Source of the DNA: Gammaproteobacteria bacterium
GTDB lineage: Bacteria; Pseudomonadota; Gammaproteobacteria; Steroidobacterales; Steroidobacteraceae
Assembly (NCBI GenBank): GCA_020846815.1
Contig: JADLDF010000010.1
Coordinates: 1-14,769, forward strand
Length of the DNA stretch: 14,769 bases
Reading direction: 5' to 3'
How positions within the stretch are numbered: position 1 is the first letter of the stretch; every line of letters starts with the position of its first letter. Made by a program: the position numbers and the translations under genes. The notes below the pieces were generated by a model that saw nothing but the letters and a program-made list of their open reading frames with translations, did not search any database and was not told the origin of the DNA. This document shows positions 1 through 13,294 of the stretch, one piece after another.

Positions 1-361
1 CCAGGGCACCGGAACGGTACGGACCGGCATGATCCAGATAGACCGACTCCGGCAAGCCGTTCGGCGGAGCACGCAACCGGTTCTCGATCACGCGGCGTCC
101 CCAGGCGTCCGGTGTCGCATCGCGCAGTGCGCCGAACAGTGTGAGCCCGGCGGGAGGCAGCAGCTCCGCACCGCCTCGCCCCTGGCTCAGAGGCAGTGCG
201 ATGGGATCCACGGGCAAAGCACCTGGCCGATCCAGATAGCGCAGGCCATAGGCGAAGCGCGATGCCGTGACTGCGGTTCCCTGCTCCACCATGGTGAGAC
301 GGCCTGCCGGTACGGCATCGGTATCGCCCGGCAGATGGATGAAAACGATGCGATCAGGCAC
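1..361 (-). CDS. HipA-like kinase, N-terminal part (runs off window)
   Basis: This gene is incomplete: about 120 codons of the N-terminal part are visible and the rest lies beyond the left edge. The translation contains PAGRLT, then FAYGLRYLDRPGALPVDPIALPL and, near residues 85-100, FGALRDATPDAWGRR, which matches the HipA N-terminal domain of HipA-type serine/threonine kinases. Known HipA kinases phosphorylate glutamyl-tRNA synthetase or related targets and are neutralised by a HipB partner. The kinase core and catalytic residues are outside the window, so activity cannot be judged. The start is taken as GTG at 361-359. It follows the stop of the HTH gene by three bases and is the first usable start after that in-frame TGA; an in-frame ATG lies 23 codons further in. 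Family assignment is firm; the toxin role is inferred from the neighbouring repressor. Confidence 0.82.
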   Translation of the reverse strand, partial: MPDRIVFIHLPGDTDAVPAGRLTMVEQGTAVTASRFAYGLRYLDRPGALPVDPIALPLSQGRGGAELLPPAGLTLFGALRDATPDAWGRRVIENRLRAPPNGLPESVYLDHAGPYRSGAL

Positions 362-364
362 GCG

Positions 365-691
365 TCAGAAATCCAGATCGGCAGCCGTACGCTTGTGGCG
401 TACCCGCTTGATGCGGGTTTCGTTCAGGAGCGCGGCCGCGGCCGGGTCGTCCAGCGCGTTCAGGAGCCGGAGCATTCCCAGTGATTCGAACACGGAAAGC
501 CAGACACCGAGCGACACCGAGACGCCTCCTTTTTCGATTCGCTTGAGCGTCGCCGTTCCGACGCGAGCGCGCTCCGCCAGCTCCGCCAGCGTCCATCGGC
601 GGGCCAGGCGGCCTTGGCGAACCAGGGACGCCAGATGGCGGGCGGTCTCGTCGGCGGAGGGAGTGATGAAATTTTTGGCCCGGCGCTTCAT
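365..691 (-). CDS. HipB-like helix-turn-helix repressor/antitoxin
   Basis: This is a 108-residue XRE-family DNA-binding protein. Residues about 17-60 form the helix-turn-helix domain (RRWTLAELAERARVGTATLKRIEKG), and the C-terminal tail is basic (IKRVRHKR). It lies directly upstream of the HipA-like gene. HipB-type proteins normally bind palindromes in their own promoter and hold HipA inactive, so this is probably the antitoxin and autorepressor of the pair. The ATG at 691 sits next to an AT-rich palindrome and has no Shine-Dalgarno sequence, which suggests a very short or absent leader. The TGA stop is in the same reading frame as the following GTG start of the kinase, so the two products are separated by only a stop and one codon. 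Function is inferred from family and context. Confidence 0.82.
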   Translation of the reverse strand: MKRRAKNFITPSADETARHLASLVRQGRLARRWTLAELAERARVGTATLKRIEKGGVSVSLGVWLSVFESLGMLRLLNALDDPAAAALLNETRIKRVRHKRTAADLDF

Positions 692-1312: not shown

Positions 1313-1747
1313 TCAATCGGGCGTTCCCATACTGCCCGGGTCGGTCACGAACCCGATTCGCGTCAGGCCTTGCCGTGCCAGCATCGAGAGCGTGCGTGCC
1401 ATTTCACCATAGGGCACGGCCGCATCGCCCTTCAGGTGGATTTCGGTTTCCGGCGCACCGGCTGCAAGCTGCGCCGCACGCCGTTCCAGCTCTTGCGGAA
1501 CGATCGGCTCGCCATTCCAGTACAGGCGTCCGTCGCGCTGCACGGCGATCTCGACGTGCTCGGTCCGCGCGACGTTGGGGCGGCTGCTCGCGCGCGGCAG
1601 CTCGAGCTTGACCGCATGGGTGAGCAGCGGCGCGGTGATGATGAACACCACCAGCAACACCAGCATCACATCGACCAGCGGGATCACGTTGATCTCGGCC
1701 ATCGGCCGTCCGCCTGCGCCTGCGCCGAGCGTGCCGAGTCCCATCAT
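1313..1747 (-). CDS. exbD: ExbD/TolR-family energy transducer
   Basis: This is a 144-residue inner-membrane protein of the ExbD/TolR family. It has the typical N-terminal stretch AEINVIPLVDVMLVLLVVFI (about 17-36), a single transmembrane helix carrying the conserved proton-relay aspartate at residue 26. A periplasmic domain follows (EIAVQRDGRLYWNGEPI to TRIGFVTDPG). ExbD works with ExbB to pass proton-motive force to TonB. The ATG at 1747-1745 overlaps the exbB stop in an ATGA junction, so translation is probably coupled. A longer open frame upstream exists but lies inside exbB in another frame and is not coding. The gene is the last of the nine-gene operon, and its position next to tonB and exbB supports ExbD rather than TolR. 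Confidence 0.93.
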   Translation of the reverse strand: MMGLGTLGAGAGGRPMAEINVIPLVDVMLVLLVVFIITAPLLTHAVKLELPRASSRPNVARTEHVEIAVQRDGRLYWNGEPIVPQELERRAAQLAAGAPETEIHLKGDAAVPYGEMARTLSMLARQGLTRIGFVTDPGSMGTPD

Positions 1748-2481
1748 GCGGCTCCGGCGATGCGCAGCGCCGGAATGCGCCCGCCGCGTGACAGCGGGGC
1801 GCCGGTGACGGCGAGCGTGAGCAGGTCGTGCCCGAAGGCATCGAGCCGCCCCAGGACGACGCGATTGCGCCGCACCAACGCGTTGTAGCCGAGCACTGCC
1901 GGAATGGCGACGGCGAGCCCGATGGCCGTCATGATCAGCGCCTCGCCGACGGGACCAGCGACCTTGTCGAGCGTGCCCTGGCCGGACAGGCCAATGGCGA
2001 TCAGTGCGTGGTAGATGCCCCAGACGGTGCCGAACAGGCCGACGAACGGCGCCGTCGAGCCGACCGAGGCGAGCACGGTGAGGCCGCGCTCGAGACGCTC
2101 GGCCTCCTCTTCTATGCCCTGGCGCAGGATGCGGGTCAGGAACTCGGACAACCCACCGGCGGCATCCAGGTGGCCGGCGCCGTAGGCCGAGTAGTGCCGG
2201 GTCGAATCGAGCGCCAGGCGGGCGAGACGCGCGCAGGGGTCGCCGGGCTCTGCCGGCAGTTGGTCGGTCGCCTCGGCGAACGAGCGCGCACGCCGGAAGC
2301 GGGCGAGGAATGCGGCACTGCGCCGCCTGAGCAGCCATTGTCCGATCAGGCGATCGACGATGATTCCCCAGCTGACCACGGAAGCGAGCAGCATGGCCGC
2401 GAGGATGCAGCGCGCGAGTATGTCGGCCTGGGCGAGGAAATGGGTGAAGCCGAGATCGTGTCCGTTCATGGGAGCACTCAC
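1744..2481 (-). CDS. exbB: ExbB/TolQ-family proton channel
   Basis: This is a 245-residue MotA/TolQ/ExbB-family protein. It has a first membrane helix near residues 23-44, a cytoplasmic domain to about 135, and the hallmark second and third helices: ASVGSTAPFVGLFGTVWGIYHAL (138-160) and GEALIMTAIGLAVAIPAVLGYNAL (179-202). ExbB forms the pentameric channel that, with ExbD, energises TonB. The chosen start is GTG at 2481, which overlaps the tonB stop as GTGA; neither this start nor the alternative ATG at 2469 (giving MNGHDLGF) has a strong ribosome site, so the first five residues are uncertain. The stop overlaps the exbD start. Its place between tonB and exbD in an uptake operon argues for a dedicated ExbB rather than TolQ. 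Confidence 0.93.
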   Translation of the reverse strand: MSAPMNGHDLGFTHFLAQADILARCILAAMLLASVVSWGIIVDRLIGQWLLRRRSAAFLARFRRARSFAEATDQLPAEPGDPCARLARLALDSTRHYSAYGAGHLDAAGGLSEFLTRILRQGIEEEAERLERGLTVLASVGSTAPFVGLFGTVWGIYHALIAIGLSGQGTLDKVAGPVGEALIMTAIGLAVAIPAVLGYNALVRRNRVVLGRLDAFGHDLLTLAVTGAPLSRGGRIPALRIAGAA

Positions 2482-3119
2482 ATTTCGAAGAGGATGGGAA
2501 CCTGGACCCAGGCGTTGATGGGCTCCTCGCCGCGGCGTGCGGGTACGAAGCGCCAGCCGACGACGGCTTCACGGGCGGCGAGGTCGAGCCTCTCGAAGCC
2601 GGAGGAGTCCTTGATCTCGATGCGCTCGGCTCGCCCGTCCGCGGACACGAAGACGCGCAGCAGCACGCGGCCCGTCTCGCCGAGGCGACGGGACATCGGC
2701 GGATACTGCGGCGGGGGGTTGTCGAGATAGTCGGCGGTGAAGTCCGGTGGTATCACGGGCGGCGGTGGCGCGACCACTGCCGCGGGCGGATCGAGAGCCG
2801 CCGGCAACGGCTCGGCGGGCGGCTCGGGCACGATGAAGGAGGACATGGGTTGCCCGGCGCGCGGCGCGGCCGCCAGTACCGGACTCGGCGGCGGCGGAGC
2901 CTCCGGTCGCCGGGCCTCGGGTCGCCGCGGAGGTTCTGCGGAACTCGCGATCGGTTTCGGCGACGGCACGATCAGGCTGGCCTGGATGACTTCGCCCAGC
3001 GCCCGTCGCGCCTGCGGCGAAACCTGCAGCACGATGGCGAGGATCGCGAAGTGCGCCAAGCCGACGACGAGCCACTGCGCCGCCGGCCGCATCCAGCGCC
3101 ACGTGCCCGCGCGCAGCAT
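2478..3119 (-). CDS. tonB: TonB energy transducer
   Basis: This is a 213-residue TonB-family protein. It has an N-terminal membrane anchor (AAQWLVVGLAHFAILAIVLQV, about 13-33), a proline-rich periplasmic linker (about 50-125, with runs such as RRPEARRPEAPPPPSP), and a C-terminal TonB domain from about 134 with QYPPMSRRLGETGRVLLRVFVSADG and GWRFVPARRG. TonB spans the periplasm and transmits energy to outer-membrane receptors. The linker is rich in Pro, Glu and Arg but has few Lys-Pro repeats. The ATG at 3119 overlaps the DUF364 stop by one base (TGATG), and its own stop overlaps the exbB start, so all three transducer genes look translationally coupled. It presumably serves the receptor at the head of the same operon. 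Confidence 0.93.
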   Translation of the reverse strand: MLRAGTWRWMRPAAQWLVVGLAHFAILAIVLQVSPQARRALGEVIQASLIVPSPKPIASSAEPPRRPEARRPEAPPPPSPVLAAAPRAGQPMSSFIVPEPPAEPLPAALDPPAAVVAPPPPVIPPDFTADYLDNPPPQYPPMSRRLGETGRVLLRVFVSADGRAERIEIKDSSGFERLDLAAREAVVGWRFVPARRGEEPINAWVQVPILFEM

Positions 3120-3985
3120 CAGGCCGCCGGACGCATTCGCAGGGTGACGCGCTCTACCGTCTTGCCGAAGAAGTGATACCCGGACCCCCCCTCGGCCAGC
3201 AGCTCGAGCAATTCATCGGGCGCCCGCACTCGTGTGCCGCCGACCACGGTGACGCCGCGCCGGGCATAGGGCTCGGCCAGCAGCGTCGCGGTCGGCCCGA
3301 TCACCGCTGCTTCCGTGCTTGGCCGCAGGAGCTGCAGAAGACCATCCAGCGTGCCGTTGAGCAGCGCCGTGCCGGTGGTGATGAAGACATCGGCGCGAGG
3401 AATCACCTCCGCCGCACGCTCCCCCGGGACGTAGTACGGCAGTTCCTCGGGCTTCAAGGTCGTGGGATCGAGCTCGAGGACCTTGAAGGGCTGCTGGCGT
3501 CGGCGCAGCTCCCGCATGTAGGGCGGGAAGGCTCCGACCAGTGCCACCATCTGACCTGGCGCGATGGACAGCGCCTCGAACGCATCGCCCTCCCGCAGCT
3601 CGACACCGGCCGGCGGTCCGTCGCGCAGCCAGAGCGTCTCTGTGAGAGCGTTGAGCGTGGCAATGGCCAGCGCCCGGCGCAGATCCTGTGGGCGATAGAG
3701 ATCGTCCAGCACCTTCACCACCGGACGCCCGGCGATCTTGCCTGGCGTCGGCATGGCCTTGGCCGAGCTCGGGCAACAAACCGCCTCGGGCACTCCCTTG
3801 ACCGGCGTCGCGCACAAGCCGCCGGCGCCATTGGCGAGCTTGACGCCGGTGAAGAAGATGCCGAGCACCGCACGCTCGATGCACAGGGCTTCCGCTTCGG
3901 GGCCGAGGCGCTCGAGCACCGTGGCATGCAGCTCGGCGAGCAGAGTGGCAGGCGCTGCGGCGGCGGTCTCACGCATGGCTTCCAT
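3119..3985 (-). CDS. DUF4213/DUF364 putative heavy-metal chelation protein
   Basis: This is a 288-residue cytoplasmic protein with no signal peptide. Residues about 10-95 fit the DUF4213 N-terminal fold (GIFFTGVKLANGAGGLCATP at 42-61), and residues about 135-270 fit DUF364, with VALVGAFPPYMREL (148-160), ADVFITTGTALLNGTLDGLL (198-217) and VIGPTATLLAEPYARRGVTVVGG (228-250). The family is described as a putative heavy-metal chelation domain and is often found near metal transporters; its reaction is unknown. Cysteines at 35, 58, 70 and 71 (the last two adjacent) are possible metal ligands. The ATG at 3985 is chosen because GAGGTGA (3991-3997) precedes it and overlaps the methyltransferase stop; a longer frame to 4186 would only add out-of-frame methyltransferase sequence. 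It sits between the methyltransferase and tonB, so it probably acts on the transported metal complex. Confidence 0.85.
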   Translation of the reverse strand: MEAMRETAAAAPATLLAELHATVLERLGPEAEALCIERAVLGIFFTGVKLANGAGGLCATPVKGVPEAVCCPSSAKAMPTPGKIAGRPVVKVLDDLYRPQDLRRALAIATLNALTETLWLRDGPPAGVELREGDAFEALSIAPGQMVALVGAFPPYMRELRRRQQPFKVLELDPTTLKPEELPYYVPGERAAEVIPRADVFITTGTALLNGTLDGLLQLLRPSTEAAVIGPTATLLAEPYARRGVTVVGGTRVRAPDELLELLAEGGSGYHFFGKTVERVTLRMRPAA

Positions 3986-3990
3986 GTCGG

Positions 3991-3997
3991 TCACCTC
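3991..3997 (-). promoter_or_regulatory. Ribosome binding site fixing the DUF364 start
   Basis: GAGGTGA on the minus strand lies five bases before the ATG at 3985. It overlaps the TGA of the upstream methyltransferase gene, which suggests reinitiation between the two. Confidence 0.7.
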
Positions 3998-5033
3998 AGC
4001 AGCAGTCCGCTCGACGGCCGAAATGCAGCTTGGTGTTGCCATACTCGCCGGCCAGATCGCCCCGTTCGGTGTCGATGAGCCCGGCCTTTTCCAGCCGCTG
4101 GCAGAACTCCTCGACATGACACAGAGGATGACTGTCGGTGAGTACTGCCTTGTCGAGATCGCACAGCCCGCCGGGTGCCGTTTCACAAGCCTCCAGGCAG
4201 AACCAATGGGCCAGGCACAGCTCGCCTCCCCGATTCAGTCTGGCGGCAACGGCGGTCAGCGCATCGACGGTCGACTTGCGCACCGAATAGAGGCTGTGGA
4301 ACACCACGGCGTAGTCGAACCGTTCGTCGGTCGGCGGATCGAGCGGCGTGCCCGGCAGGACGCGGCAGCGCGCGGCGGTCCCGCAGATCTGCAGCGTCTC
4401 CTCGGCGCGCGAGACGGCGTCTGGCGCAACCACGACCGTTACGTGCGCTGCCGGAAAGACGGGACGGAGCGCAGCCGCCAGCAGGCCGGCACTGCCGTCG
4501 AAGCAGAGCAGCGAGCGCACGGCCGCCGCGTCGCGCCCTTGCGCCTGCCGCGCGGCCAGATGAGCGGCGACGCGACGCGCCTCGCCGAGGAAGGGTCGCA
4601 GTGCCGGCGCGAGCGACGGTGCGGCCGCAGCCGGCGTCCAGCCTTCCGAAAGGAAGCGCCTCATGTCGGACCAGCCACAGGCCGGAGCCAGCAGCGCCTC
4701 GAACGCATCGGCCTGACACCATGGACTGCTCGCGCACAGCGCTTCCCGCATTTCCGGCATCAGCGTGTAGGCGTTGCCGCGACGCGCCAGCAGGCCCAGG
4801 TCCACCAGCGCCTGCAGAAAGCCGCCGAGGTGCGCGCCGCGCAGCTGCAGCGCAGCCGCGATCGCCGACTTCTCCGCCGGCCCGTGGCGTTCGAGCCAGT
4901 CGAAGAGGCCGCTGCCAAAGCCGGCGCGCAAGGCCTGGAAGGTCTTGAAGCCATCCGCGATGCGACGCAAGGCTTCGACTGCCGAGGGAGGTTCGAGGGT
5001 GGCGAGGTCGACGCTTCGGGTTTGCATGTCCAT
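3996..5033 (-). CDS. Cysteine-rich class I SAM-dependent methyltransferase
   Basis: This is a 345-residue protein. The N-terminal third resembles the winged-helix dimerisation domain of small-molecule O-methyltransferases (FGSGLFDWLERHGPAEKSAIAAAL, then FLQALVDLGLLARRGNAYTL). The C-terminal part is a Rossmann-type domain: LLCFDGSAGLLAAAL near 180-195 stands at the SAM-binding loop in a degenerate form, AHVTVVVAPDAV follows, and FDYAVVFHSLYSVR is a motif-II-like strand. The start ATG at 5033 has GGAG (5041-5044) seven bases upstream. It carries 14 cysteines, including a C-terminal CC pair and a cluster (CLAHWFCLEAC, then GGLC), which is unusual for the family. It lies 32 bases after the binding protein gene and 10 before the DUF364 gene. 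Its substrate is unknown; modifying a metal ligand is an inference. Confidence 0.78.
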   Translation of the reverse strand: MDMQTRSVDLATLEPPSAVEALRRIADGFKTFQALRAGFGSGLFDWLERHGPAEKSAIAAALQLRGAHLGGFLQALVDLGLLARRGNAYTLMPEMREALCASSPWCQADAFEALLAPACGWSDMRRFLSEGWTPAAAAPSLAPALRPFLGEARRVAAHLAARQAQGRDAAAVRSLLCFDGSAGLLAAALRPVFPAAHVTVVVAPDAVSRAEETLQICGTAARCRVLPGTPLDPPTDERFDYAVVFHSLYSVRKSTVDALTAVAARLNRGGELCLAHWFCLEACETAPGGLCDLDKAVLTDSHPLCHVEEFCQRLEKAGLIDTERGDLAGEYGNTKLHFGRRADCC

Positions 5034-5065
5034 TCGTGAGCTCCGTCATCGTGTTGGGTAGCGGA

Positions 5066-6091
5066 TCATCTGGCTGCCGGCCCGCCGCGCGGGCCGCCGG
5101 CGAGGATCTCCTCGGCCTGCGATGCCGAGAGATCCGTGCCGAAGAAACTGCGGTAGAACCGCCGCGTCTCACCCGGCAGGTCGACCGTCGCGAACAGCGC
5201 GGGGTGGAACTGTTTGGCTGCCCACAGCACCGTGAGCGGCTGCTCGGCCGTGCGGTTGCCCCAGGCATGAGCACCGCAGGGCGTCACCAGCACGCGTCCG
5301 GTTCGCACGGCCTCGAGGCCGGCGAAGCGCGGTTCACGCCGCACGGCTTCGGCCTCGTCGCGGCCGGAGACGATGAGGATGTCCGGGTTCCAGAGCAGCA
5401 GCTGCTCCAGCGTGAAGCTGCGCGATTCGACGCTGCGCCCGTCGTCGGTGACGCTCTCGCCGCCTGCGCTGCGGATCCACCATTCGGCGACCAGATGCGG
5501 CTGGGTCAGCGTTCCCGGGCTGAAATAGAGCACGCGGGGCCGCCGCGGATCGGCACGCCGCAGCGTCGCGGCGATGCCGGCCAGCGTTGCGTCGAAGTAT
5601 CTGGCATAGCGCTGGGCGGCTTGCCGCCGGCCGAACAGCTCGCCGAGCAGCCGCACCGCGGCCTTCACGTCCTCGGGCTGGCGCCAGGCGAGATAGAGCG
5701 CGGGCAGACCGATGCGGCGCAGGCCCTCGGCGCTCGCTCGATCCATGGTGAGCACGACGTCCGGTGCCGCCTGCAGCAGGGCCTCGAGATTCGGCGTGCG
5801 ATCGGCGTTCTGCAGCGACGGCAGCGTCGCGATGTGCGGCGCAAACACGGTCTGGTATCCCCAGCGCGGCTTCTTGGCGAACTCGGGCAGGCCGTTGGCG
5901 ATGCGCCGTCCTTCGCCCACGACGAACACCAGGCTGTTCAGCACGGGTACCGCGCCGACGGTTGCGATGCGCTCGATGTGTGCCGGCACCGTCACCGCAT
6001 TGCCCGCCATGTCGTGCAGCGTGCGCGGTGGCGCCGCCTGCGCCGGCAGGGTGCAAAGAGTGACGAGCAGGATCAGAAGCCGGGCGAGCAC
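5066..6091 (-). CDS. FecB/BtuF-type periplasmic metal-complex binding protein
   Basis: This is a 341-residue substrate-binding protein of the class served by FecCD transporters. A signal peptide, MLARLLILLVTLCTLPAQA, covers residues 1-19 and lacks a lipobox, so the mature protein should be soluble in the periplasm. RTLHDMAGNAVTVPAHIERIATVG opens the mature part; NLEALLQAAPDVVLT and SFTLEQLLLWNPDILIVSG are the usual paired lobe motifs. The family binds siderophores, heme, cobalamin and, in MolA of Haemophilus, molybdate or tungstate. The start is GTG at 6091, chosen for the strong GGAGG (6101-6105) nine bases upstream. The gene lies 17 bases after the ABC ATPase and completes the importer. The substrate cannot be read from the sequence; molybdate, tungstate or a chelate is suggested by the locus. 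Confidence 0.9.
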   Translation of the reverse strand: MLARLLILLVTLCTLPAQAAPPRTLHDMAGNAVTVPAHIERIATVGAVPVLNSLVFVVGEGRRIANGLPEFAKKPRWGYQTVFAPHIATLPSLQNADRTPNLEALLQAAPDVVLTMDRASAEGLRRIGLPALYLAWRQPEDVKAAVRLLGELFGRRQAAQRYARYFDATLAGIAATLRRADPRRPRVLYFSPGTLTQPHLVAEWWIRSAGGESVTDDGRSVESRSFTLEQLLLWNPDILIVSGRDEAEAVRREPRFAGLEAVRTGRVLVTPCGAHAWGNRTAEQPLTVLWAAKQFHPALFATVDLPGETRRFYRSFFGTDLSASQAEEILAGGPRGGPAAR

Positions 6092-6108
6092 CGACAGGAA
6101 CCTCCGGT

Positions 6109-6873
6109 TCAGAGCCGCGGCACGCAGGCGAGCGGCGCGCCACGATGACTGACGACATCCACCGGCGTGCCGTAGAGCCCGGACAACGACTCCGCATGCA
6201 GCACGCTACGCGCAGGACCGGCCGCGACGATGCGTCCGCCCGAAATGGCGATGGCGCGCGCGCCGAGCAGCAGGGCGTGTTCGGGCTGGTGGGTGGTGAC
6301 GAGCACGGCCAGGCCCTCGGCGGCCAGGTCACGGATGGTGCGCAGCACGCGGGCCTGGTTGCCGAGGTCGAGGCTCGCGGTCGGCTCGTCCATCAGGAAC
6401 AGGCGCGGCTGCTGGGCAAGTGCGCGGGCGATCAGCGCCAGCTGACGTTCACCGCCGCTGATGCGATTGAACGGCCGCGCGGCGAGATAGGCGATGCCGA
6501 CGCGCGCCAGGGCGTCCCGGGCGAGCTGCTCGTCGCGCCAGCTGGGCAGCGCCAGCGGCGGCAGATGCGGCGTGCGACCCATGAGCACGATGTCAAGCAG
6601 TGTCAGGCCGCTGTCGCCAGCCGCCTGCGGCACATAGGCCATCATGCGTGCCCGGTGGCGCGGCGCGGCGTGAATCTCGCCGTCGATGTGCACGGTACCG
6701 TGCTCGGGGCGCAGAGCGCCGATCAGGCAGCGCAGCAGTGTCGTCTTGCCGCTGCCGTTCGGCCCGAGCAGGCAGAGGATCTCGCCGGATGCCAGCGCCA
6801 GATCGATGCCGTCGAGCACGGGCGCCTGCCCGGGCGCGCGCCGATAGACCAGCCCGCGTACGTTCAGGACCAT
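6109..6873 (-). CDS. ABC transporter ATPase, FecE/BtuD class
   Basis: This is a 254-residue ATPase with all motifs present: Walker A GPNGSGKTT (38-46), Q-loop in YVPQAA (80-85), signature ISGGERQ (138-144), Walker B RLFLMDEP (157-164) and the H-loop in VTTHQP (192-197). Length and order fit the ATPases that partner FecCD permeases in type II importers. It hydrolyses ATP at the inner membrane to drive uptake of a metal complex. The ATG at 6873 starts inside the last codons of the permease gene (10-base overlap), and the gene ends 17 bases before the binding protein gene. An open frame extends up to 7278 but that part is inside the permease and is not coding. Confidence 0.94.
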   Translation of the reverse strand: MVLNVRGLVYRRAPGQAPVLDGIDLALASGEILCLLGPNGSGKTTLLRCLIGALRPEHGTVHIDGEIHAAPRHRARMMAYVPQAAGDSGLTLLDIVLMGRTPHLPPLALPSWRDEQLARDALARVGIAYLAARPFNRISGGERQLALIARALAQQPRLFLMDEPTASLDLGNQARVLRTIRDLAAEGLAVLVTTHQPEHALLLGARAIAISGGRIVAAGPARSVLHAESLSGLYGTPVDVVSHRGAPLACVPRL

Positions 6874-7895
6874 TGCCGCCTCGCACGCGCCAGGACGACG
6901 ACGAAGACCGGCGCACCGAGCACGGCCGTGACGATGCCCAGCGGCAGCTCTGCCGCAAAGGCGCTGCGACACAGGTCGTCCACCAGCAGCAGGTAGCCGG
7001 CGCCCAGCAGGGCCGACGCGGGCAGCAGCGCCGTGTAGGCCGGCCCGACGAGCAGGCGGGCGAGATGCGGCACGAGCAGGCCCACCCAGCCGACGACACC
7101 GGAGATGCTCACCGCCGCGGCCGTCATCAGTGTCGCCGCTGCGATCAGTGCGAGGCGCAAGGCACGCACCGGTACGCCGAGCGTGCGCGCCTCGTCGTCG
7201 CCGGCCTCGAGCACCTGGGTCGGCCAGCGCAGCAGGAACAGCGCGACGATGCCGGTCAGCGCAAGAGGCGCCGCCCACGCCAGATCGCGCATGCCCACGC
7301 GACCCAATCCGCCGAGCAGCCAGAAGACGATGGCCGGCAGGGTGTCGAGAGGATCGGCCACGTACTTGAGCGCCGAGGTGAGTGCCTGGAACAGCGCCGA
7401 GACCACGAGCCCGGCGAGCACCAGGACCAGCGCCGAGCCCTTGCCGAGACGGCCGGCGATGAACATCGCCGCCGCCACCGCGATGATGCCGCCGGCGAAC
7501 GCCGAACCCTGCACCGCCAGCACGCCCGCCTGCAGCAGCATGGCGAGCGCAGCACCGAAACCTGCGCCGGCCGAAACCCCGAGGATGGCCGGCGAAGCGA
7601 GCGGGTTGCGGAACAGCGTCTGGTAGGCCGCGCCGGCCGCCGCCAGGCTGGCGCCGACGAGCATTGCCGCCAGGACGCGCGGCAGGCGCACCGCCAGTAC
7701 CACGTTCTCGACCGCCGGCGGCTGGGCCGAATGCGTCCCGCTCAGCGCTGCCCAGAGCACGTCGAGCACCGCTGCAGGATGCAGCGGGTAGTGGCCGAGA
7801 CCCATGGAAACCACGGCCGTGACGAGCAGCAGCGCCACCAGGACGGCCATCGGTGCGACGACACGGTGCGATGAGGTCGCCGCCGACAAGGTCAA
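6864..7895 (-). CDS. FecCD-family ABC transporter permease
   Basis: This is a 343-residue polytopic membrane protein with the FecCD/BtuC hallmarks: VRLPRVLAAMLVGASLAAAGAAYQTLFRNPLASPAILGVSAGAGFGAAL (about 69-117), FWLLGGLG (191-198) and SGVVGWVGLLVPHLARLLVG (265-284). It forms the homodimeric channel of a type II importer. The chosen start is TTG at 7895, overlapping the receptor stop as TTGA; this gives a short cytoplasmic segment (MTLSAATSSHRVV) before the first helix. The alternative ATG at 7850 would begin directly at the helix and has no ribosome site, so 15 residues are uncertain. An open frame extends to 8189, but that part is inside the receptor gene. In Haemophilus MolB, a permease of this class carries molybdate or tungstate. 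Confidence 0.92.
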   Translation of the reverse strand: MTLSAATSSHRVVAPMAVLVALLLVTAVVSMGLGHYPLHPAAVLDVLWAALSGTHSAQPPAVENVVLAVRLPRVLAAMLVGASLAAAGAAYQTLFRNPLASPAILGVSAGAGFGAALAMLLQAGVLAVQGSAFAGGIIAVAAAMFIAGRLGKGSALVLVLAGLVVSALFQALTSALKYVADPLDTLPAIVFWLLGGLGRVGMRDLAWAAPLALTGIVALFLLRWPTQVLEAGDDEARTLGVPVRALRLALIAAATLMTAAAVSISGVVGWVGLLVPHLARLLVGPAYTALLPASALLGAGYLLLVDDLCRSAFAAELPLGIVTAVLGAPVFVVVLARARRQWS

Positions 7896-10174
7896 AATTT
7901 CGCGCTCACCGTCAGCGCCACCGACCTCGGCGCGCCCGGCAGATAGGTCGGCAGGCCCCCTACCGCATAGTCGGAAGCATTGATGATGCCGATGTAGCGC
8001 TTGTCGAAGAGATTGGAGACCGCGAGGCTGGCGCCGAGCCGTTCCAGGCCGAGGACGTCCTTCAGTTCGTAGTCGATGTTCAGGTCGGCCACGGCGTGGG
8101 CGGATACGGGCTCCAGCTCTTGCGTGTCGCCGAAGCGTTTGCCGATGTAGCGCAGCACCGGCGCCACCGACCATGCACCAACGCGCCACACTGCGCCGAT
8201 CTTGGCCGAGTGCCGCGGCGAGTCCTGCATCTGCTTGCCGTCGACGCGCACGACGGCATTGCTGGCGGTCGCGGCATCGTCGTCATAGGCAGCGCGGTTG
8301 TAGGCATACGAGAAGTAGATGTCGAGGTCGTTGCTCGGCATGGCGCCGACTTCCAGCTCCAGCCCGCTGGCGCTCGCCCGTGCGACGCTCTGGTGATAGG
8401 CGACTCCGACCGCCGGATCGAACAGGTTGAGCTGCTTGTTCTGATATCGGATATGGAAGAGCGTCGGCGCGACATAGGCGCTGCCGAAGGCGAAGCGGGC
8501 GCCGAGGTCGAAGTTGTCGGAGATCTCGGGGCGCAGATTCGACCAGACTTCATCGAAGCGCACGCCAGCGGCATCGAACGCCGCACGGCTGCCGGTATAG
8601 GCGCTGGCGATGGAGCCCCAATTCTGACGCCCATAGGCACGTCCGTAGCTGGCCCGCAGCAAGGTGGTCGACGACGCTTCATGGGTGACGCCGAGATTCG
8701 GCAGCCACTCGTGGAAACTGCGGCCGTGCGAGAACATCGACGGATCGGGCTGCGGGTTGTAGTTGAACACCGAGCCATACGGCACGTCGGGCGCAGTATT
8801 GCCGAGATAGTAGGTGAACGTGGGGTCCTTGTAGCCCATGTATCTCACTCCGGCCGACACTTCGGTGTCCTCCAGCCGGAAGGTCGCAGCGACATAGGGA
8901 TTGCTGTATTGATGCCGGGTGGTCTTTGCCAGCGTGCTCCAGCGCGCGAAATTCAGGTTGCCGGCGGCGGTGATGCGGTAGACGCGTTGCGCCGTCGGCG
9001 GCGGCGGCGCCTCGCTGCTCTGGAACCAGTAGCCGACCGCCAGATCGCCCCACGCGTATGGCGAGTCGTAGCGCAAGTCGAATCCGTAGGTGTCGTGGAC
9101 GATCTCCCACCATGTGACGCCTGGCGAACCCTGCACGCTGGCGCTGCCGGCAAGTGAATAGCCGCTCTCCTTCCAGTAGTAGGGTTTGAGCGTCAGGCGG
9201 GAATCGTCGTCGACGAGGAACGTGGCCCGGCCGAGATAGGCGTCGTTGGTGTAGTCCTGACGGTTGAAGCGATAGTACGAGGCATCGGTGGCCGCGTTCC
9301 CCGTGAGGCTGGCGTTGTAATCGAGCGTGCCATACTGGCCGAGATCCCGTGCCTGTGCGCTGCTCAGCGCGCGGAAGTCGTTCCAGCTCACTTCATGATG
9401 CACACCGGACAGCTCGATGGTCACTCGCTTGCCGAGATTCGCATGCAGCCCGAACTCGACGTTGCTGCGATCCTGCCCACCGGGGCCACGCCACTTGTCC
9501 GCCGCCGTGTCCGAGGCCGAGAGGAAGAAGCTGACCGGCGCCGCCGCGAGCTGCCCCGAGTCCAGCCGTGCGAACGTGCGCCGAAAGCCGTCCGAGCCGC
9601 CGGCTTGTGATGCTTCGACACCGAACTCCCGCTCCGGCCCGCGCAAGCTCAGGTCGACGACCGAGGAATTCGAGAAGCCGAGTCCGCTGCCGGCGGGAAC
9701 TGCGCCCCGCATGAGAACGATGCCACTCACGTTCTCGAGATCGAACAAGTCGCCACCACCCTTGCCGCTCGCGAAGCCTGGCTCGCCGGCGATCGGCAGG
9801 CCGTTGATCGTGCGGCCCACGTGGCTCGAGCTCTTGCCCCGGATCCTGAAGCTCATGCGGTTTCCCAGGCCATACGAATCCGCGCTCTGGTAATTGACGG
9901 ACGGGGCCAGCTGCAACGCCTTCCATGGGCTGGTCTGGGCCGGCCCGGCGAGGGCGCGGATGCCGTCCCGGCTGACGTCGGTCTGCGTGTTCGGCCGTGC
10001 CTCCGGGGGCGGGATCAATCCCGGCGGCGCGGTCTCGCGGACTCTGACTTCCTTCAGTACGGCTTCCGTTCCATCGCCGCCGGCTTCGGCGGCGAGAACC
10101 GTGGAGACGGCGAGCAGTGGCGCCGCAGCGCAGAGCAGGCCGGCGAGACCGGCCTTGTTGATCAGGTATCCCAT
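7892..10174 (-). CDS. TonB-dependent outer-membrane receptor
   Basis: This is a 760-residue receptor. It has a signal peptide to about residue 29 (AAAPLLAVSTVLAA), a possible TonB box within EAVLKEVRVRE (38-48), a plug domain with WKALQLAPSVNYQSADSYGLGNRMSFRIRG (84-113) and GIVLMRGAVPAG (151-162), and a long beta-barrel ending in SVALTVSAKF with the terminal Phe typical of outer-membrane proteins. RYIGIINASDYAVGGLPTYLPGAPRS is a standard receptor end. Receptors of this family take up large or scarce ligands: siderophores, cobalamin, metal chelates. It heads the operon; the ATG at 10174 lies 41 bases from a ModE-like site. The ligand is not evident from the sequence; a molybdenum or tungsten complex is an inference from the neighbours. 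Confidence 0.95.
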   Translation of the reverse strand: MGYLINKAGLAGLLCAAAPLLAVSTVLAAEAGGDGTEAVLKEVRVRETAPPGLIPPPEARPNTQTDVSRDGIRALAGPAQTSPWKALQLAPSVNYQSADSYGLGNRMSFRIRGKSSSHVGRTINGLPIAGEPGFASGKGGGDLFDLENVSGIVLMRGAVPAGSGLGFSNSSVVDLSLRGPEREFGVEASQAGGSDGFRRTFARLDSGQLAAAPVSFFLSASDTAADKWRGPGGQDRSNVEFGLHANLGKRVTIELSGVHHEVSWNDFRALSSAQARDLGQYGTLDYNASLTGNAATDASYYRFNRQDYTNDAYLGRATFLVDDDSRLTLKPYYWKESGYSLAGSASVQGSPGVTWWEIVHDTYGFDLRYDSPYAWGDLAVGYWFQSSEAPPPPTAQRVYRITAAGNLNFARWSTLAKTTRHQYSNPYVAATFRLEDTEVSAGVRYMGYKDPTFTYYLGNTAPDVPYGSVFNYNPQPDPSMFSHGRSFHEWLPNLGVTHEASSTTLLRASYGRAYGRQNWGSIASAYTGSRAAFDAAGVRFDEVWSNLRPEISDNFDLGARFAFGSAYVAPTLFHIRYQNKQLNLFDPAVGVAYHQSVARASASGLELEVGAMPSNDLDIYFSYAYNRAAYDDDAATASNAVVRVDGKQMQDSPRHSAKIGAVWRVGAWSVAPVLRYIGKRFGDTQELEPVSAHAVADLNIDYELKDVLGLERLGASLAVSNLFDKRYIGIINASDYAVGGLPTYLPGAPRSVALTVSAKF

Positions 10175-10195
10175 GGTATTGCCTGGTGGCCATCG

Positions 10196-10211
10196 CGTTG
10201 CTGGTGCAACG
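10196..10211. promoter_or_regulatory. Small hairpin in the receptor 5' leader
   Basis: CGTTGC (10196-10201) and GCAACG (10206-10211) are perfect complements around TGGT. The hairpin lies between the ModE-like site and the receptor ATG, so it would be in the leader RNA or form a second protein-binding site. Its role is unknown. Confidence 0.4.
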
Positions 10212-10214
10212 TAG

Positions 10215-10238
10215 CGTAATATACACTAGGATATAACG
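10215..10238. promoter_or_regulatory. ModE/Mop-like operator in the divergent promoter
   Basis: The inverted repeat is CGTAATAT (10215-10222), an 8-base spacer, then ATATAACG (10231-10238); one half-site differs from the other at a single base. This closely follows the layout of the E. coli modA operator as I recall it (CGTTATAT, 8 bases, ACATAACG), which is bound by ModE with molybdate. On the minus strand a TATATT (10223-10218) inside it could be the -10 box of the receptor operon, with a weak -35 near 10247-10242, so binding would repress transcription when molybdate is plentiful. The site lies 41 bases from the receptor start and 131 from the molbindin start. ModE itself is not in this window. 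Confidence 0.68.
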
Positions 10239-10267
10239 AGGCCGGAAGTTGCCGACGGGGTCGAAAG

Positions 10268-10279
10268 GTCCGCGCGGAC
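10268..10279. repeat. Perfect 12-bp palindrome upstream of the molbindin gene
   Basis: GTCCGCGCGGAC is a perfect palindrome in the leader or promoter side of the molbindin gene. It could be a regulator site or a chance GC-rich structure. Confidence 0.25.
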
Positions 10280-10356
10280 TGGGTCTTGTACGTACGCCGG
10301 CAGATGAGCAACTCGGCCGGCAGGCCGATACGATTGCCGATGGTTCTCTGCAGATC

Positions 10357-10361
10357 AGGAG
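10357..10361 (+). promoter_or_regulatory. Ribosome binding site fixing the molbindin start
   Basis: AGGAG lies seven bases before the ATG at 10369. An in-frame ATG at 10363 is only one base away from it, so 10369 is the better start. Confidence 0.7.
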
Positions 10362-10368
10362 AATGGCC

Positions 10369-10797
10369 ATGCAGACCAGTGCGCGCAATCAGTTCCTCGG
10401 CAAGGTGGCGCGAGTCACGAGGGGAGCAGTCAACGACGAGATCGAGCTGGACGTGGCGGGAGGACACACGATCGTCGCCATCGTGACCCACGAGAGCGCG
10501 GACAGTCTCGGGGTGCAGCCCGGCTCGGAAGCCTTCGCGCTCATCAAGGCGTCTTCGATCATCGTGACCACTGAAGAGAAAGGCGTCCGGTTCTCGGCGC
10601 GCAATCGTCTCACCGGGACCATTTCCCGGCGGCAGCCGGGCGCGGTCAATACCGAGGTGGTGATCGATCTGCCGGGCGGCGGCTCGGTGGCCGCGATCGT
10701 CACCAACGAAAGCGCGCAAGCGCTCGGCCTCGAGGTCGGCAAGAAGGCCTCGGCCATCTTCAAGGCCTCGAGCGTGATCATCGGCGTGCTGGCTTGA
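10369..10797 (+). CDS. mop: Di-Mop molbindin (two tandem TOBE/Mop domains)
   Basis: This is a 142-residue protein made of two copies of the roughly 70-residue Mop (TOBE) domain. The first is SARNQFLGKVARVTRGAVNDEIELDV to FALIKASSIIV (about 4-66); the second is SARNRLTGTISRRQPGAVNTEVVIDL to AIFKASSVIIGV (about 74-141). Both keep the N/SARN-L-GxV opening, the GAVNxEV motif and the KASSxII end that shape the oxyanion-binding sites of molbindins. Known molbindins bind molybdate and tungstate in the cytoplasm and act in storage or homeostasis. There is no extra DNA-binding domain, so it is not ModE. It is transcribed away from the receptor operon across a ModE-like site, and its stop overlaps the next gene as TTGA. 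Confidence 0.92.
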   Translation: MQTSARNQFLGKVARVTRGAVNDEIELDVAGGHTIVAIVTHESADSLGVQPGSEAFALIKASSIIVTTEEKGVRFSARNRLTGTISRRQPGAVNTEVVIDLPGGGSVAAIVTNESAQALGLEVGKKASAIFKASSVIIGVLA

Positions 10798-11312
10798 CGC
10801 AGGTCCTGCCCATCGCTGCAGTCGTCTATGCCGGTCACGGCGCGGTCGATGGCGTCGTGGCCGAGTTCGCCCGCGGCTTGCAGCGGCGTGGCCGGCAGGT
10901 GCGCGGCCTGCTCCAGAACGACTCGCCGGCCGGCGCCGGGAGCATGTGCGGGACGGTGCTCGTCGATCTGCACAGTAGCGAGCGCTACCGCATCTCGCAG
11001 GATCTCGGCTCCGGCTCGGTCTCGTGCCGGGTCGATCCCGGCGGTCTCGCCATAGCCAGCATCGTGCTGCGTCGTGCGCTCGCCGAAGACACCGACCTCG
11101 TCGTCGTCAACCGCTTCGGTGTCCTCGAAGCAACGGGCGGCGGCTTTGCGGCGGAAATGCTGGCGCTGATGGAGGCGGAGCGGCCGCTGCTCGCAGCCGT
11201 TGCCGAGAAGCATCGCGAACACTGGCTGCATTTCACCGGTGGCGCCGGTGTCGAGCTTCCGGTCGAGATCCAGGCGCTGGAGTCCTGGTTCGCCGGGCTC
11301 GGGCAACGCTGA
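10794..11312 (+). CDS. DUF2478 protein, molybdenum-associated
   Basis: This is a 172-residue soluble protein of the DUF2478 family. Signature stretches are AAVVYAGHGAVDGVVAEFARGLQRRG (8-33), SVSCRVDPGGLAIAS (75-89) and DLVVVNRFGVLEATGGGFAAEML (101-123). DUF2478 genes recur beside molybdate transport and molbindin genes and have sometimes been labelled as molybdenum transport ATPases; the biochemical role is unknown. The N-terminal loop resembles a nucleotide-binding loop but lacks the Lys-Ser/Thr pair of a proper Walker A, so NTPase activity should not be assumed. The start is TTG at 10794, overlapping the molbindin stop as TTGA; no ATG or GTG is available before the conserved first strand. 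Translation is probably coupled to the molbindin gene. Confidence 0.83.
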   Translation: MTQVLPIAAVVYAGHGAVDGVVAEFARGLQRRGRQVRGLLQNDSPAGAGSMCGTVLVDLHSSERYRISQDLGSGSVSCRVDPGGLAIASIVLRRALAEDTDLVVVNRFGVLEATGGGFAAEMLALMEAERPLLAAVAEKHREHWLHFTGGAGVELPVEIQALESWFAGLGQR

Positions 11313-11341: not shown

Positions 11342-13294
11342 TCAGCCGCCAAAGACAGCGGGCGTCCCGAGCCAGTCGGCCATGTCGCGCCGGCTGCGCA
11401 ACCGCTGCCGCTGGAAGTGCATCCAGGCCTTCTCGTAGAGCCGGTCGATGCGCTGCGGCGAGGGAAAGCGCGCGCAGAAGCCGGGGTCGACCGGTTCGAT
11501 GGCGAGCGCGGCGGCATGCATGAACTGCGCGAGCAGGCGCCGCGGATCCTCGTCGCCGACGGCAATGCGGATCGTGGTCGGCGCGATGCCAGCCTCGCGC
11601 AGCGCTTCGGGCGAGAGCTCGGAATGGCTGGTGACGCCGGGGCCGAGCACGACGGTGTTGGTCTGGCCGAGGCTCACCTGCAGGCCGAAGGCCGGCTCGA
11701 GGCAGTCGAAAAAGCGCTTGAAGGCCGCGGTCGGCAGCCAGGAGGCCTCGCCGGGCGCCGGCTCGAAGTCGAGCGTGAACAGCGGCGCCGGCAGGCCGAG
11801 ATAGAGGCAGCGGCGCGCCAGTGCATGGTTCGGGTCAGTGCGCACGGCGGAGCAGTGCACGCGGATCCGCGGATGGCGCGCCAGCACGCGGGCGAGCACG
11901 ACGGTGTGGATGCACTTCTGCAGCATCCGCATCTCGAGCGTGCGCATGCCGTCGATGACATCGAAGGCCTTGTCGGCGTCGAGGAACGCGCCCTTGACGT
12001 AGTAGACGTTCCAGAACAGCGTCTGGTCCCAGCTCCAGGCGCGCGCCTGCCCGTCGGGGCCCGGCGCGGTCACGCTCTCGCCCTTGGGGATGAACATGCG
12101 CTCGGTGCGCGCGATCGCGACGCCGGCCGTGGTCGTGCCCGAACCGGCGAGGTCCTTGGTGTAGGAGTGGATCACGAAGTCCGGCCGCTGCGCTGGATCG
12201 TCGCGCTGCAGCACCGGCTGCAGGAACGGCGTGCCGACGGTCGCGTCGCAGATCACCGTGAGCCCGGCGGCATGCGCCGCGGCGCAGATGCCCGGCACGT
12301 CGAGCACATAGCCGTGCGGGTTGCAGGGGGATTCGAGGTAGACGTAAACCTGCCGGCCCTGCGCGAGGCGGTCGGCGTGCAGCGTGCGCACGCGTGCCAG
12401 CGCCGCCGCGAAATCCGCCGTGCCGAAGCCGTCGAACGACTCGACCGCGACGTCGAGATTGGCGCGCCGACCGTACCAGTCGTGCAGCAGCTGCCAGGTG
12501 CCGCCGTAGATGTTGCGGCTCGCGAGCACCACGTCGCCGCGGCCGAGCAGGTGCGCGAGCACGGCGTCGATCGCCGCCATGCCGGAGTTGAAGTTCCAGG
12601 CGAAATACTCGGGCGCGAGCCGGCCCGCCTCGACCTCGACGACGTGGTTCGCGAGGCTGATCGAGGTCGGGTTCAGCAGCCGCGAATAGACCTGGTGCAG
12701 AGACTCCTTGCCGCGAAATGCGTCCTCGACCCACTCGGTGCAGGCATAGAGGTAGGTGGCTGTACGCGTGATGACCGGCGTCGCCGAGAAGATCGCGGTA
12801 ACGTTGTCGAACAGCGGGTACGGCCCGCGCACGGCCGCGTCGACGCCGCCACCGTCGAGTGATTGCCAGGTACGGCGCAGCGGGTTCTGCAGGGTGTCGA
12901 GGATCTTGGCGAGCTGGAAGCAGGCGAAGCGCTTGGCGTTGAACCAGGCGACGCGGTCGCGACGGTCAAGCCCGTCCAGCGCCTCCACCATGCAGCGCCA
13001 CAGCTCGTGCGCGGCCTCGTGCGCGGTGTAGAGTTTTTCGACCAGCGCCAGCAGCGCGCGGCCGGCGTCGCTGTGCTCGTCGATCGAGAAATGCTGCAGC
13101 TGCTCGCGGGCGAGGTCGGCCGCGCCGGTCGCGGCGGTCGTGTGGCGCAGCGGCGAGAGCTCGTGGCGCGCGGCGAGATCGCGGTCGTCGTCGCTGTTGC
13201 GCGCACCGTCGGCAGCACGGCTCCGGTCCGTGGCCGGGCCGCGGCCCCCATTGCTGCCTGGTTGATGCGTACCGACGGCCATCAGCCGGAGCAT
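11342..13294 (-). CDS. Cys/Met-metabolism-type PLP enzyme with long N-terminal extension
   Basis: This is a 650-residue PLP-dependent protein of the trans-sulfuration (MetB/MetC/MetY) fold. The core starts near residue 160 and has YSRLLNPTS (203-211), the glycine-loop region NFNSGMAAIDAVLAHLL (234-250), NIYGGTWQLL (261-270), YLESPCNPHGYVLDV (319-333), the ring-binding aspartate in ICDATVGTP (D350) and the PLP lysine in HSYTKDLAGSG (K380). Residues about 55-150 are an extra helical domain (LVEKLYTAHEAAHELWRCMVEAL), and the first 50 residues are low-complexity, so the true start could be later than ATG 13294 (ATG also at 13282). No clear ribosome site is seen. Substrate is unknown; a C-S lyase or related reaction is likely by family. 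It follows the NtrX-like gene by 53 bases and runs convergent to the DUF2478 gene with a 29-base gap. Confidence 0.82.
   Translation of the reverse strand: MLRLMAVGTHQPGSNGGRGPATDRSRAADGARNSDDDRDLAARHELSPLRHTTAATGAADLAREQLQHFSIDEHSDAGRALLALVEKLYTAHEAAHELWRCMVEALDGLDRRDRVAWFNAKRFACFQLAKILDTLQNPLRRTWQSLDGGGVDAAVRGPYPLFDNVTAIFSATPVITRTATYLYACTEWVEDAFRGKESLHQVYSRLLNPTSISLANHVVEVEAGRLAPEYFAWNFNSGMAAIDAVLAHLLGRGDVVLASRNIYGGTWQLLHDWYGRRANLDVAVESFDGFGTADFAAALARVRTLHADRLAQGRQVYVYLESPCNPHGYVLDVPGICAAAHAAGLTVICDATVGTPFLQPVLQRDDPAQRPDFVIHSYTKDLAGSGTTTAGVAIARTERMFIPKGESVTAPGPDGQARAWSWDQTLFWNVYYVKGAFLDADKAFDVIDGMRTLEMRMLQKCIHTVVLARVLARHPRIRVHCSAVRTDPNHALARRCLYLGLPAPLFTLDFEPAPGEASWLPTAAFKRFFDCLEPAFGLQVSLGQTNTVVLGPGVTSHSELSPEALREAGIAPTTIRIAVGDEDPRRLLAQFMHAAALAIEPVDPGFCARFPSPQRIDRLYEKAWMHFQRQRLRSRRDMADWLGTPAVFGG

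Follow-up and report, generated by a model that had tools for sequence, protein, structure and literature searches.

Molybdate is usually regarded as entering bacterial cells through porins and ModABC, and iron and vitamin B12 are the known substrates of TonB-dependent outer membrane receptors of the kind considered here. Here we describe a locus of eleven genes in a 14,769-nucleotide stretch (the window) of contig JADLDF010000010.1 from a member of the Steroidobacteraceae (assembly GCA_020846815.1). The locus very probably encodes an uptake system for molybdenum (Mo) or tungsten (W) and, as judged from its genes, couples TonB-dependent metal uptake with a MolBCA-type transporter and regulation by ModE, a combination that appears to be new. 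It shares with MolBC-A of Haemophilus influenzae (HI1470–HI1472) a type II (FecCD) ATP-binding cassette (ABC) importer, whose permease and ATPase have MolB and MolC as their best matches among solved proteins, and adds to it a receptor, TonB-ExbBD, DUF364, a methyltransferase-like protein, Mop, DUF2478 and a ModE box. The H. influenzae system imports molybdate with low affinity, and its published description nowhere mentions TonB (PMC4031551). FhuA/FhuBCD and BtuB/BtuCDF have in common with the locus a receptor, TonB-ExbB-ExbD, a FecCD permease, a PF01497 binding protein and an ATPase, but the locus has a ModE box rather than a Fur box or cobalamin riboswitch, and Mo-handling partners, and its permease is in a separate clade from cobalamin-type permeases. 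The ModE box and Mop-type proteins are shared with ModABC-ModE, and relatives of ModA, ModB, ModC, ModD and ModE are present in some of the related loci; however, the locus itself has no ModA- or ModB-family gene, uses another transporter class and includes an outer membrane receptor. The nearest precedent that we found is a 2008 prediction of an Fe/Mo cluster in Acidithiobacillus ferrooxidans with two outer membrane receptors, a TonB system, ABC transporters and a molybdate-type binding protein, which differs in its ModA-like protein, Fur box and nitrogenase neighbours; the available part of that paper mentions neither a ModE site nor DUF364 (PMC2631029). Secreted ModA and the outer membrane protein IcmP of Pseudomonas aeruginosa represent another outer membrane route for molybdate, as given in the available parts of the reports (PMC8602904, PMC11734730). 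No characterized TonB-dependent Mo receptor was found among the papers listed in searches of the open-licence PMC literature, with subscription papers, preprints and regulon databases being outside the search.

The most telling feature of the locus, which was absent from a preliminary description of this DNA, is a ModE box (CGTAATATACACTAGGATATAACG; positions 10215–10238) in the divergent promoter region between the receptor gene and mop; the receptor start is 40 bases away and the mop ATG 130 bases away. It differs from the consensus CGNTATATA-N6-TATATANCG at two of 18 fixed positions and is the sole site in the window at three or fewer mismatches, with none in 200 dinucleotide shuffles. A Fur-box scan of the window found no site at five or fewer mismatches, a threshold that leaves room for a weaker Fur site. 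In the window no Rfam family, whether cobalamin riboswitch, Mo riboswitch or any other, attains its gathering score, and a loose threshold gives just two weak and implausible matches. A scan of 10100–10450 for promoters and terminators found nothing.

Related loci were collected with a profile of 21 DUF364 proteins, which gave 179 relatives in species genomes, and the best 80 loci (L001–L080) were kept. DUF364 identity to the window is 61 to 82% in L001–L026, the close loci, whose 26 genomes were used for genome-wide counts, and 44 to 54% in L027–L080. Genes in these loci were called by homology-weighted picking of open reading frames (ORFs), with some wrong starts and shadow ORFs, and their lengths and starts are approximate. 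The window and the 80 loci contain 33 ModE boxes at three or fewer mismatches, of which 22 are at two or fewer (in the window and 16 of the 80 loci); shuffled sequences, five per locus, contain seven, every one at three mismatches. In eight loci (L002, L003, L007, L012, L016, L017, L020 and L045) a box at two or fewer mismatches heads an operon-like run with receptor and DUF364 genes, its own start preceding that called for the first gene by about 10 to 120 bases, and in L017 a second box is just within the called receptor ORF. Scans of the 26 close genomes identified 45 boxes at two or fewer mismatches, 11 of them inside the DUF364 loci that make up 0.43% of the 104.1 Mb, where 0.19 are expected (binomial P 9e-17); to avoid bias, the count pools 13 hand-picked genomes, which include seven of the eight with a box in the locus, with the other 13. 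A reversed-pattern control gave eight sites in the same genomes. Several genomes have other boxes close to ModE or DUF2478 genes, and a ModE N-domain is present at E≤1e-20 in 24 of the 26, above the curated cut-off in 17. Import of Mo or W is thus supported by the box in the divergent promoter and by those heading the operons of some relatives.

Some of the boxes are paired. The pairs are 78–83 bases apart before the operon in L007 (2531/2609), L017 (3677/3760) and L020 (2825/2907), 82 apart in G021:C145 (1054/1136), 92 in G004:C39, and about 150 in G003:C43 and G013:C19; perhaps these represent cooperative binding or two promoters.

The neighbours of DUF364 are also informative. Pfam searches of representatives identify ModE (HTH_1 and two TOBE domains), ModA-like, ModB-like, ModC-like (ABC and TOBE) and ModD-like (quinolinate phosphoribosyltransferase, QRPTase) proteins, a molybdopterin-binding oxidoreductase and several receptor types, and the recurrence of ModE, ModA, ModB, ModC, ModD and DUF2478 relatives is further support for Mo or W import. 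One example is L016, in which similarity clusters give the order ModA, ModB, ABC ATPase, ModE box, receptor, an unassigned protein, DUF2478, binding protein, FecCD, methyltransferase, DUF364, ModD and ModE/Mop. ModA and ModB matches are also inside L001, L009, L017, L020 and L024. Because its parts recur across the 80 DUF364 loci, the gene set is no chance neighbourhood. The neighbourhood search that the preliminary description had proposed finds a receptor match in 19 of the 26 close loci, DUF2478 in 13 and Mop in 10, and TonB-ExbB-ExbD is present in five.

The transporter proteins also point to Mo or W, in that MolB and MolC are the best solved matches and MolA is in the best four of the binding protein. 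The permease matches MolB (HI1471, 2nq2_A) at 228 bits, compared to 174 for FhuB and 148 for BtuC, and the ATPase matches HI1470 (MolC, 2nq2_C) at 135 bits, with the next at 128. The binding protein has a modelled fold that is MolA-like and an N-terminal stretch that by eye resembles a signal peptide. In comparisons with solved proteins, of which one with the MolA structure had earlier been suggested, MolA is fourth by sequence, second by Foldseek and third by VIA-align, and 4ovk is first each time.

As controls we used 23 hand-picked FecCD places in the same genomes, one per genome (none from G011, G019 or G024), on contigs other than those of DUF364. The sequence taken at each place was about 11 to 20 kb long, because 2.4 to 4 kb had been too short to include most promoters. 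DUF2478 is in none of the 23 (Fisher P 4e-5 against the 13 of 26 DUF364 loci) and Mop is in one (Fisher P 0.006 against 10 of 26). Four control permeases score at least 235 bits to the window permease and three of them are Mo-marked (L118 by Mop, L125 and L128 by a ModE box), the fourth (L132) having no Mo marker; none of the remaining 19 (18 at 156 bits or below, and L135, undetected) has one (Fisher P 0.002 against the four). In both box-bearing controls the permease belongs to the MolB-like clade. A maximum-likelihood tree of 79 permeases places the window permease in a clade of 60 (100/99) that includes all 33 Mo-marked rows, 24 of the 26 DUF364-linked rows (both L067 rows are outside) and three unmarked rows, and none of the ten rows with cobalamin riboswitches. 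The rows were mostly fetched via DUF364, and the Mo-marked clustering is therefore partly by choice, making the control set the less biased test; the tree leaves the position of the window's five-row subclade within the 60 unsettled.

These comparisons bear on the two alternatives that the preliminary description had raised, neither of which is supported. The first is that the locus imports siderophore-bound iron, or both Fe and Mo, and is next to mop and DUF2478 by chance. Annotated members of the receptor and binding protein families are mostly iron or siderophore proteins, YiuA and CeuE are high in the fold ranking of the binding protein, and the Acidithiobacillus ferrooxidans cluster, with its TonB receptors, ModA-like protein and predicted Fur box, is predicted to be a dual Fe/Mo one in the available part of the paper (PMC2631029). 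However, relatives have ModE boxes and Mo/W riboswitches, the permease is nearer to MolB (228 bits) than to FhuB (174), and the window has no Fur box at five or fewer mismatches, although such sites are in two of the 26 DUF364 loci and two of the 23 controls and the scan does not discriminate. We regard such an importer as very unlikely. A cobalamin or corrinoid importer, for which BtuC- and corrinoid-type permease and ATPase profiles score, though far under their cut-offs, is contradicted by regulation and is extremely unlikely: the cobalamin riboswitch, which together with Fur boxes had been named as a sign against Mo or W import, is in none of 24 close DUF364 loci but in 11 of the 15 control FecCD loci searched (L025, L026 and eight control loci were left out).

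A receptor-less core of the system is common to Bacillota and archaea, and in some Bacillota it is under Mo/W riboswitch control. None of nine Bacillota and Synergistota loci has a receptor match, and three, all Bacillota, have a Mo/W-cofactor riboswitch (Rfam) at ABC-DUF364 genes, a second and independent signal for Mo or W import. In L069 (Thermacetogenium sp.) the riboswitch (6675–6817) precedes a row of genes for FecCD, the ATPase, the binding protein and DUF4213-DUF364, and in L028 (Desulfosporosinus, 5112–9743) it is followed by FecCD, ATPase, two nitrogenase-component-1-type proteins (PF00148) and DUF364. The third, L027 (14473–20361), has in a row the riboswitch, a MolA-like binding protein of the family of this locus, an aldehyde ferredoxin oxidoreductase and a molybdopterin oxidoreductase, and is possibly a tungsten version, aldehyde ferredoxin oxidoreductases being a family of tungsten enzymes. 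A tungsten rather than a molybdenum system in the window, to which L027 lends some weight, is nevertheless clearly unlikely: many relatives are in Thauera, Acidovorax, Comamonas, Rhodanobacter and Thiobacillus, genera known for Mo-dependent nitrate respiration, while ModE and Mop bind both oxyanions and sequence cannot decide. We note that in L028 the nitrogenase-like proteins are within a Mo-controlled uptake operon, and that a second Mo/W riboswitch there is ahead of a DUF1858 and SBP_bac_6 protein (3298–4758).

Several observations count against a ModE-controlled, receptor-dependent Mo system. No box at two or fewer mismatches is present in 18 of the 26 close loci (64 of all 80), and the difference from controls (8 of 26 versus 2 of 23) is not significant per locus (P 0.08). 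Seven of the 26 have no receptor match, two of these being on 4–5 kb contigs, and 13 have no DUF2478 inside the fetched stretch, with three of these (L001, L010 and L013) having it within 2 kb outside. Six of the nine Bacillota and Synergistota loci have no Mo/W riboswitch, the best match of the binding protein is 4ovk, whose entry title is silent on ligand, rather than MolA, and Mo and W are inseparable by sequence. Nonetheless, the claim in the preliminary description that the locus acquires Mo or W is supported by regulation, similarity to MolBCA and Mo-gene neighbours, and the whole explanation, ModE-controlled and TonB-dependent import of Mo (or W), is likely.

The gene set, its operon layout, the ModE box, the way in which relatives conserve and regulate these genes, and the closeness to MolBCA are seen in the sequence itself; direction of transport and cargo are what we infer from these data, and a simple scheme is as follows. 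When cell Mo is high, molybdate-bound ModE at 10215–10238 would, in line with the known action of ModE, repress the operon of the receptor and perhaps affect mop too, and when Mo is scarce the operon would be expressed. The receptor would then take up a Mo-containing ligand, energized by its own TonB-ExbB-ExbD, with the MolA-like protein ferrying ligand or oxyanion through the periplasm and the MolB/MolC-like ABC transporter carrying the cargo inside. The methyltransferase-like and DUF364 proteins may help to free Mo from its ligand in the cytoplasm, and Mop and DUF2478 would buffer or hand on the oxyanion.

An organic Mo chelate is, by a modest preference, the predicted cargo of the receptor. 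Small oxyanions pass through porins, and the presence of ModA and ModB relatives in some of the same loci suggests that free molybdate probably already has a carrier; moreover, the receptor diverges faster than the inner parts, as when receptors follow different ligands. In L001, L006, L009, L011 and L013 the receptor is 31 to 42% identical to that of the window and the DUF364 protein 79 to 82%; in L001 the values are 88% for the permease, 82% for the binding protein and 42% for the receptor. L009 has a second receptor further upstream on the same contig that is 67% identical, compared to 34% for the one in the locus. Among 7997 candidates scored from 5.8 billion proteins the receptor has 38 homologues at E≤0.001, and it has no PDB sequence match at E≤0.001.

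It is conceivable, and we propose it tentatively, that the locus is a molybdophore or tungstophore system as a whole, in which exchangeable receptors for different organic Mo chelates, import of the entire chelate by the MolBCA-type transporter, cytoplasmic dismantling and delivery of Mo to Mop and DUF2478 would all go together. The DUF4213-DUF364 protein and the HWFC-x3-C...HPLC protein, with its metal-binding-like motif, would then be the dismantling pair, and the chelates are perhaps made by neighbouring cells, as no scanned gene of the window resembles chelator synthesis. A point on the other side is that MolBC-A carries bare molybdate, according to the available part of its description, and a chelate therefore need not reach the cytoplasm (PMC4031551). 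The same Mo system could instead take a chelate, or Mo bound in some other way, at the receptor, free Mo in the periplasm and pass molybdate alone across the inner membrane, the two cytoplasmic enzymes doing other work such as pterin or cofactor chemistry. Transport of molybdate by MolBC-A and binding of molybdate and tungstate by MolA (PMC4031551, as far as available) are consistent with this, as are the flavin, pterin or siderophore chemistry proposed in the accessible text of the DUF364 structure paper (PMC2954201) and DUF364-DUF2478 pairs without FecCD in L022 and L026. However, the methyltransferase-like gene and DUF364 come after the transporter genes in many loci, which suggests action on imported cargo, and we find this combination of periplasmic release and other roles for the two enzymes somewhat unlikely.

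A ligand-release role for the DUF364 and methyltransferase-like proteins is a tentative assignment. The methyltransferase-like protein has an HWFC-x3-C ... HPLC motif in which H276, C279, C283, H302 and C305 are invariant in ten aligned sequences, and the HWFC...C motif is in 19 of the 20 loci with a family match, window included (81 searched), spread over Proteobacteria, Bacillota, Dehalococcoidales and methanogens such as Methanoregula. By eye, its glycine motif is unlike that of usual methyltransferases, its dimerization domain alone is above the Pfam cut-off and its PDB matches to methyltransferases are weak. Its model has a mean predicted local distance difference test (pLDDT) score of 75.6, falling below 50 at residues 279–304, part of the motif region. 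A solved DUF364 relative has enolase-N-like and Rossmann-like folds, and the available part of that paper notes neighbours that serve the transport of tungstate, vanadium, molybdate and iron, and proposes a role in the making or splitting of chelators (PMC2954201). The occurrence of DUF364 with DUF2478 but without FecCD in L022 and L026 suggests that these two proteins act in cell Mo handling and not in membrane passage.

A dedicated TonB-dependent route for Mo would imply that chelated or very scarce Mo, like iron, is a nutrient for which some bacteria compete. Three obscure families (DUF364/DUF4213, DUF2478 and the HWFC methyltransferase-like protein) would gain roles, and the genes could serve as markers of Mo limitation, with the Oak Ridge site as one place to apply them. 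Picomolar Mo, potentially limiting nitrate reduction, is reported there in the available part of the study (PMC7604516). The name of one relative, Rhodanobacter sp. FW104-R8 (L011), suggests an origin in well FW104, which that study lists. Mo uptake can be tested at once, starting from the ModE boxes, the Mo/W riboswitches and the named relatives.

The eleven genes, families, order and overlaps given in the preliminary description are all confirmed by Pfam and coordinates (Table 1), with families above curated cut-offs for every gene, the methyltransferase-like gene being the least certain. Nine are co-directional, with each overlapping or at most about 45 bases from the next start, an operon-like arrangement, and two are divergent. 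The set for TonB-dependent transport is complete (PF07715, PF00593, PF03544, PF01618 and PF02472 above cut-off), and by Pfam the places of ModA- and ModB-family genes, of which the window operon has none, are taken by PF01497 and PF01032. For the permease a start upstream of the listed ATG is possible, and the DUF364 start was set from a 100% identical 288-residue protein (P0001). Although the di-Mop ORF is open from 10249, solved Mop proteins align with it from the ATG at 10369 (residue 1) onwards; its best PDB match is 1h9j 'molybdenum-binding-protein' (E 1e-31), and we take it to be ModG-like. The DUF2478 protein has no PDB match at E≤0.1.

Table 1. Genes of the locus, with positions in the window and Pfam or other family evidence
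Feature	Position	Strand	Evidence
TonB-dependent outer membrane receptor, 760 residues	7892–10174	-	PF00593 barrel E 1.8e-32; PF07715 plug E 4.6e-8
FecCD (type II) permease, MolB-like	6864–7850	-	PF01032 E 4.8e-82; ATG at 7850
ABC ATPase, MolC-like	6109–6873	-	PF00005 E 1.6e-28
Periplasmic binding protein, MolA-like class	5066–6091	-	PF01497 E 1.6e-17
Methyltransferase-like protein	3996–5033	-	PF08100 (O-methyltransferase dimerization domain) E 2.2e-7, above cut-off
DUF4213-DUF364 protein	3119–3985	-	PF13938 E 5.9e-17; PF04016 E 4.3e-41
TonB	2478–3119	-	PF03544
ExbB	1744–2481	-	PF01618
ExbD	1313–1747	-	PF02472
Di-Mop molybdate/tungstate-binding protein (molbindin)	10369–10797	+	Two TOBE stretches, E 2.4e-37
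DUF2478 protein, nucleoside triphosphatase (NTPase)-like, TTG start	10794–11312	+	PF10649 E 8.8e-51; PF03266 E 2.2e-6

Some minor features of the related loci and of the flanking DNA are as follows. A protein of about 300 residues (cluster c39) is between the receptor and DUF2478 in L007 (4608–5573), L016 and L020, and the L007 copy, the one scanned, has no Pfam match. Radical S-adenosylmethionine (SAM) proteins recur in the DUF364 loci L009, L027, L029, L045, L060 and L061. A plasmid search with the DUF364 protein gave, at its score limit, a single record with a relative, CP038201.1 of Paracoccus ferrooxidans (303160–303927, 44.5% identity). In the window, the DNA downstream of the operon (2–691, minus strand) encodes a helix-turn-helix (HTH) protein (365–691) followed by an open frame (2–364) that is cut by the window end and by eye resembles the start of HipA, giving a hipBA-like pair. 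On the other side, tail to tail with DUF2478, is a minus-strand gene (11342–13294) for a 650-residue pyridoxal phosphate (PLP) enzyme of Cys/Met metabolism with a long N-terminal part beyond the Pfam domain, and an NtrC-family sigma-54 response regulator is encoded at 13348–14742 on the same strand.

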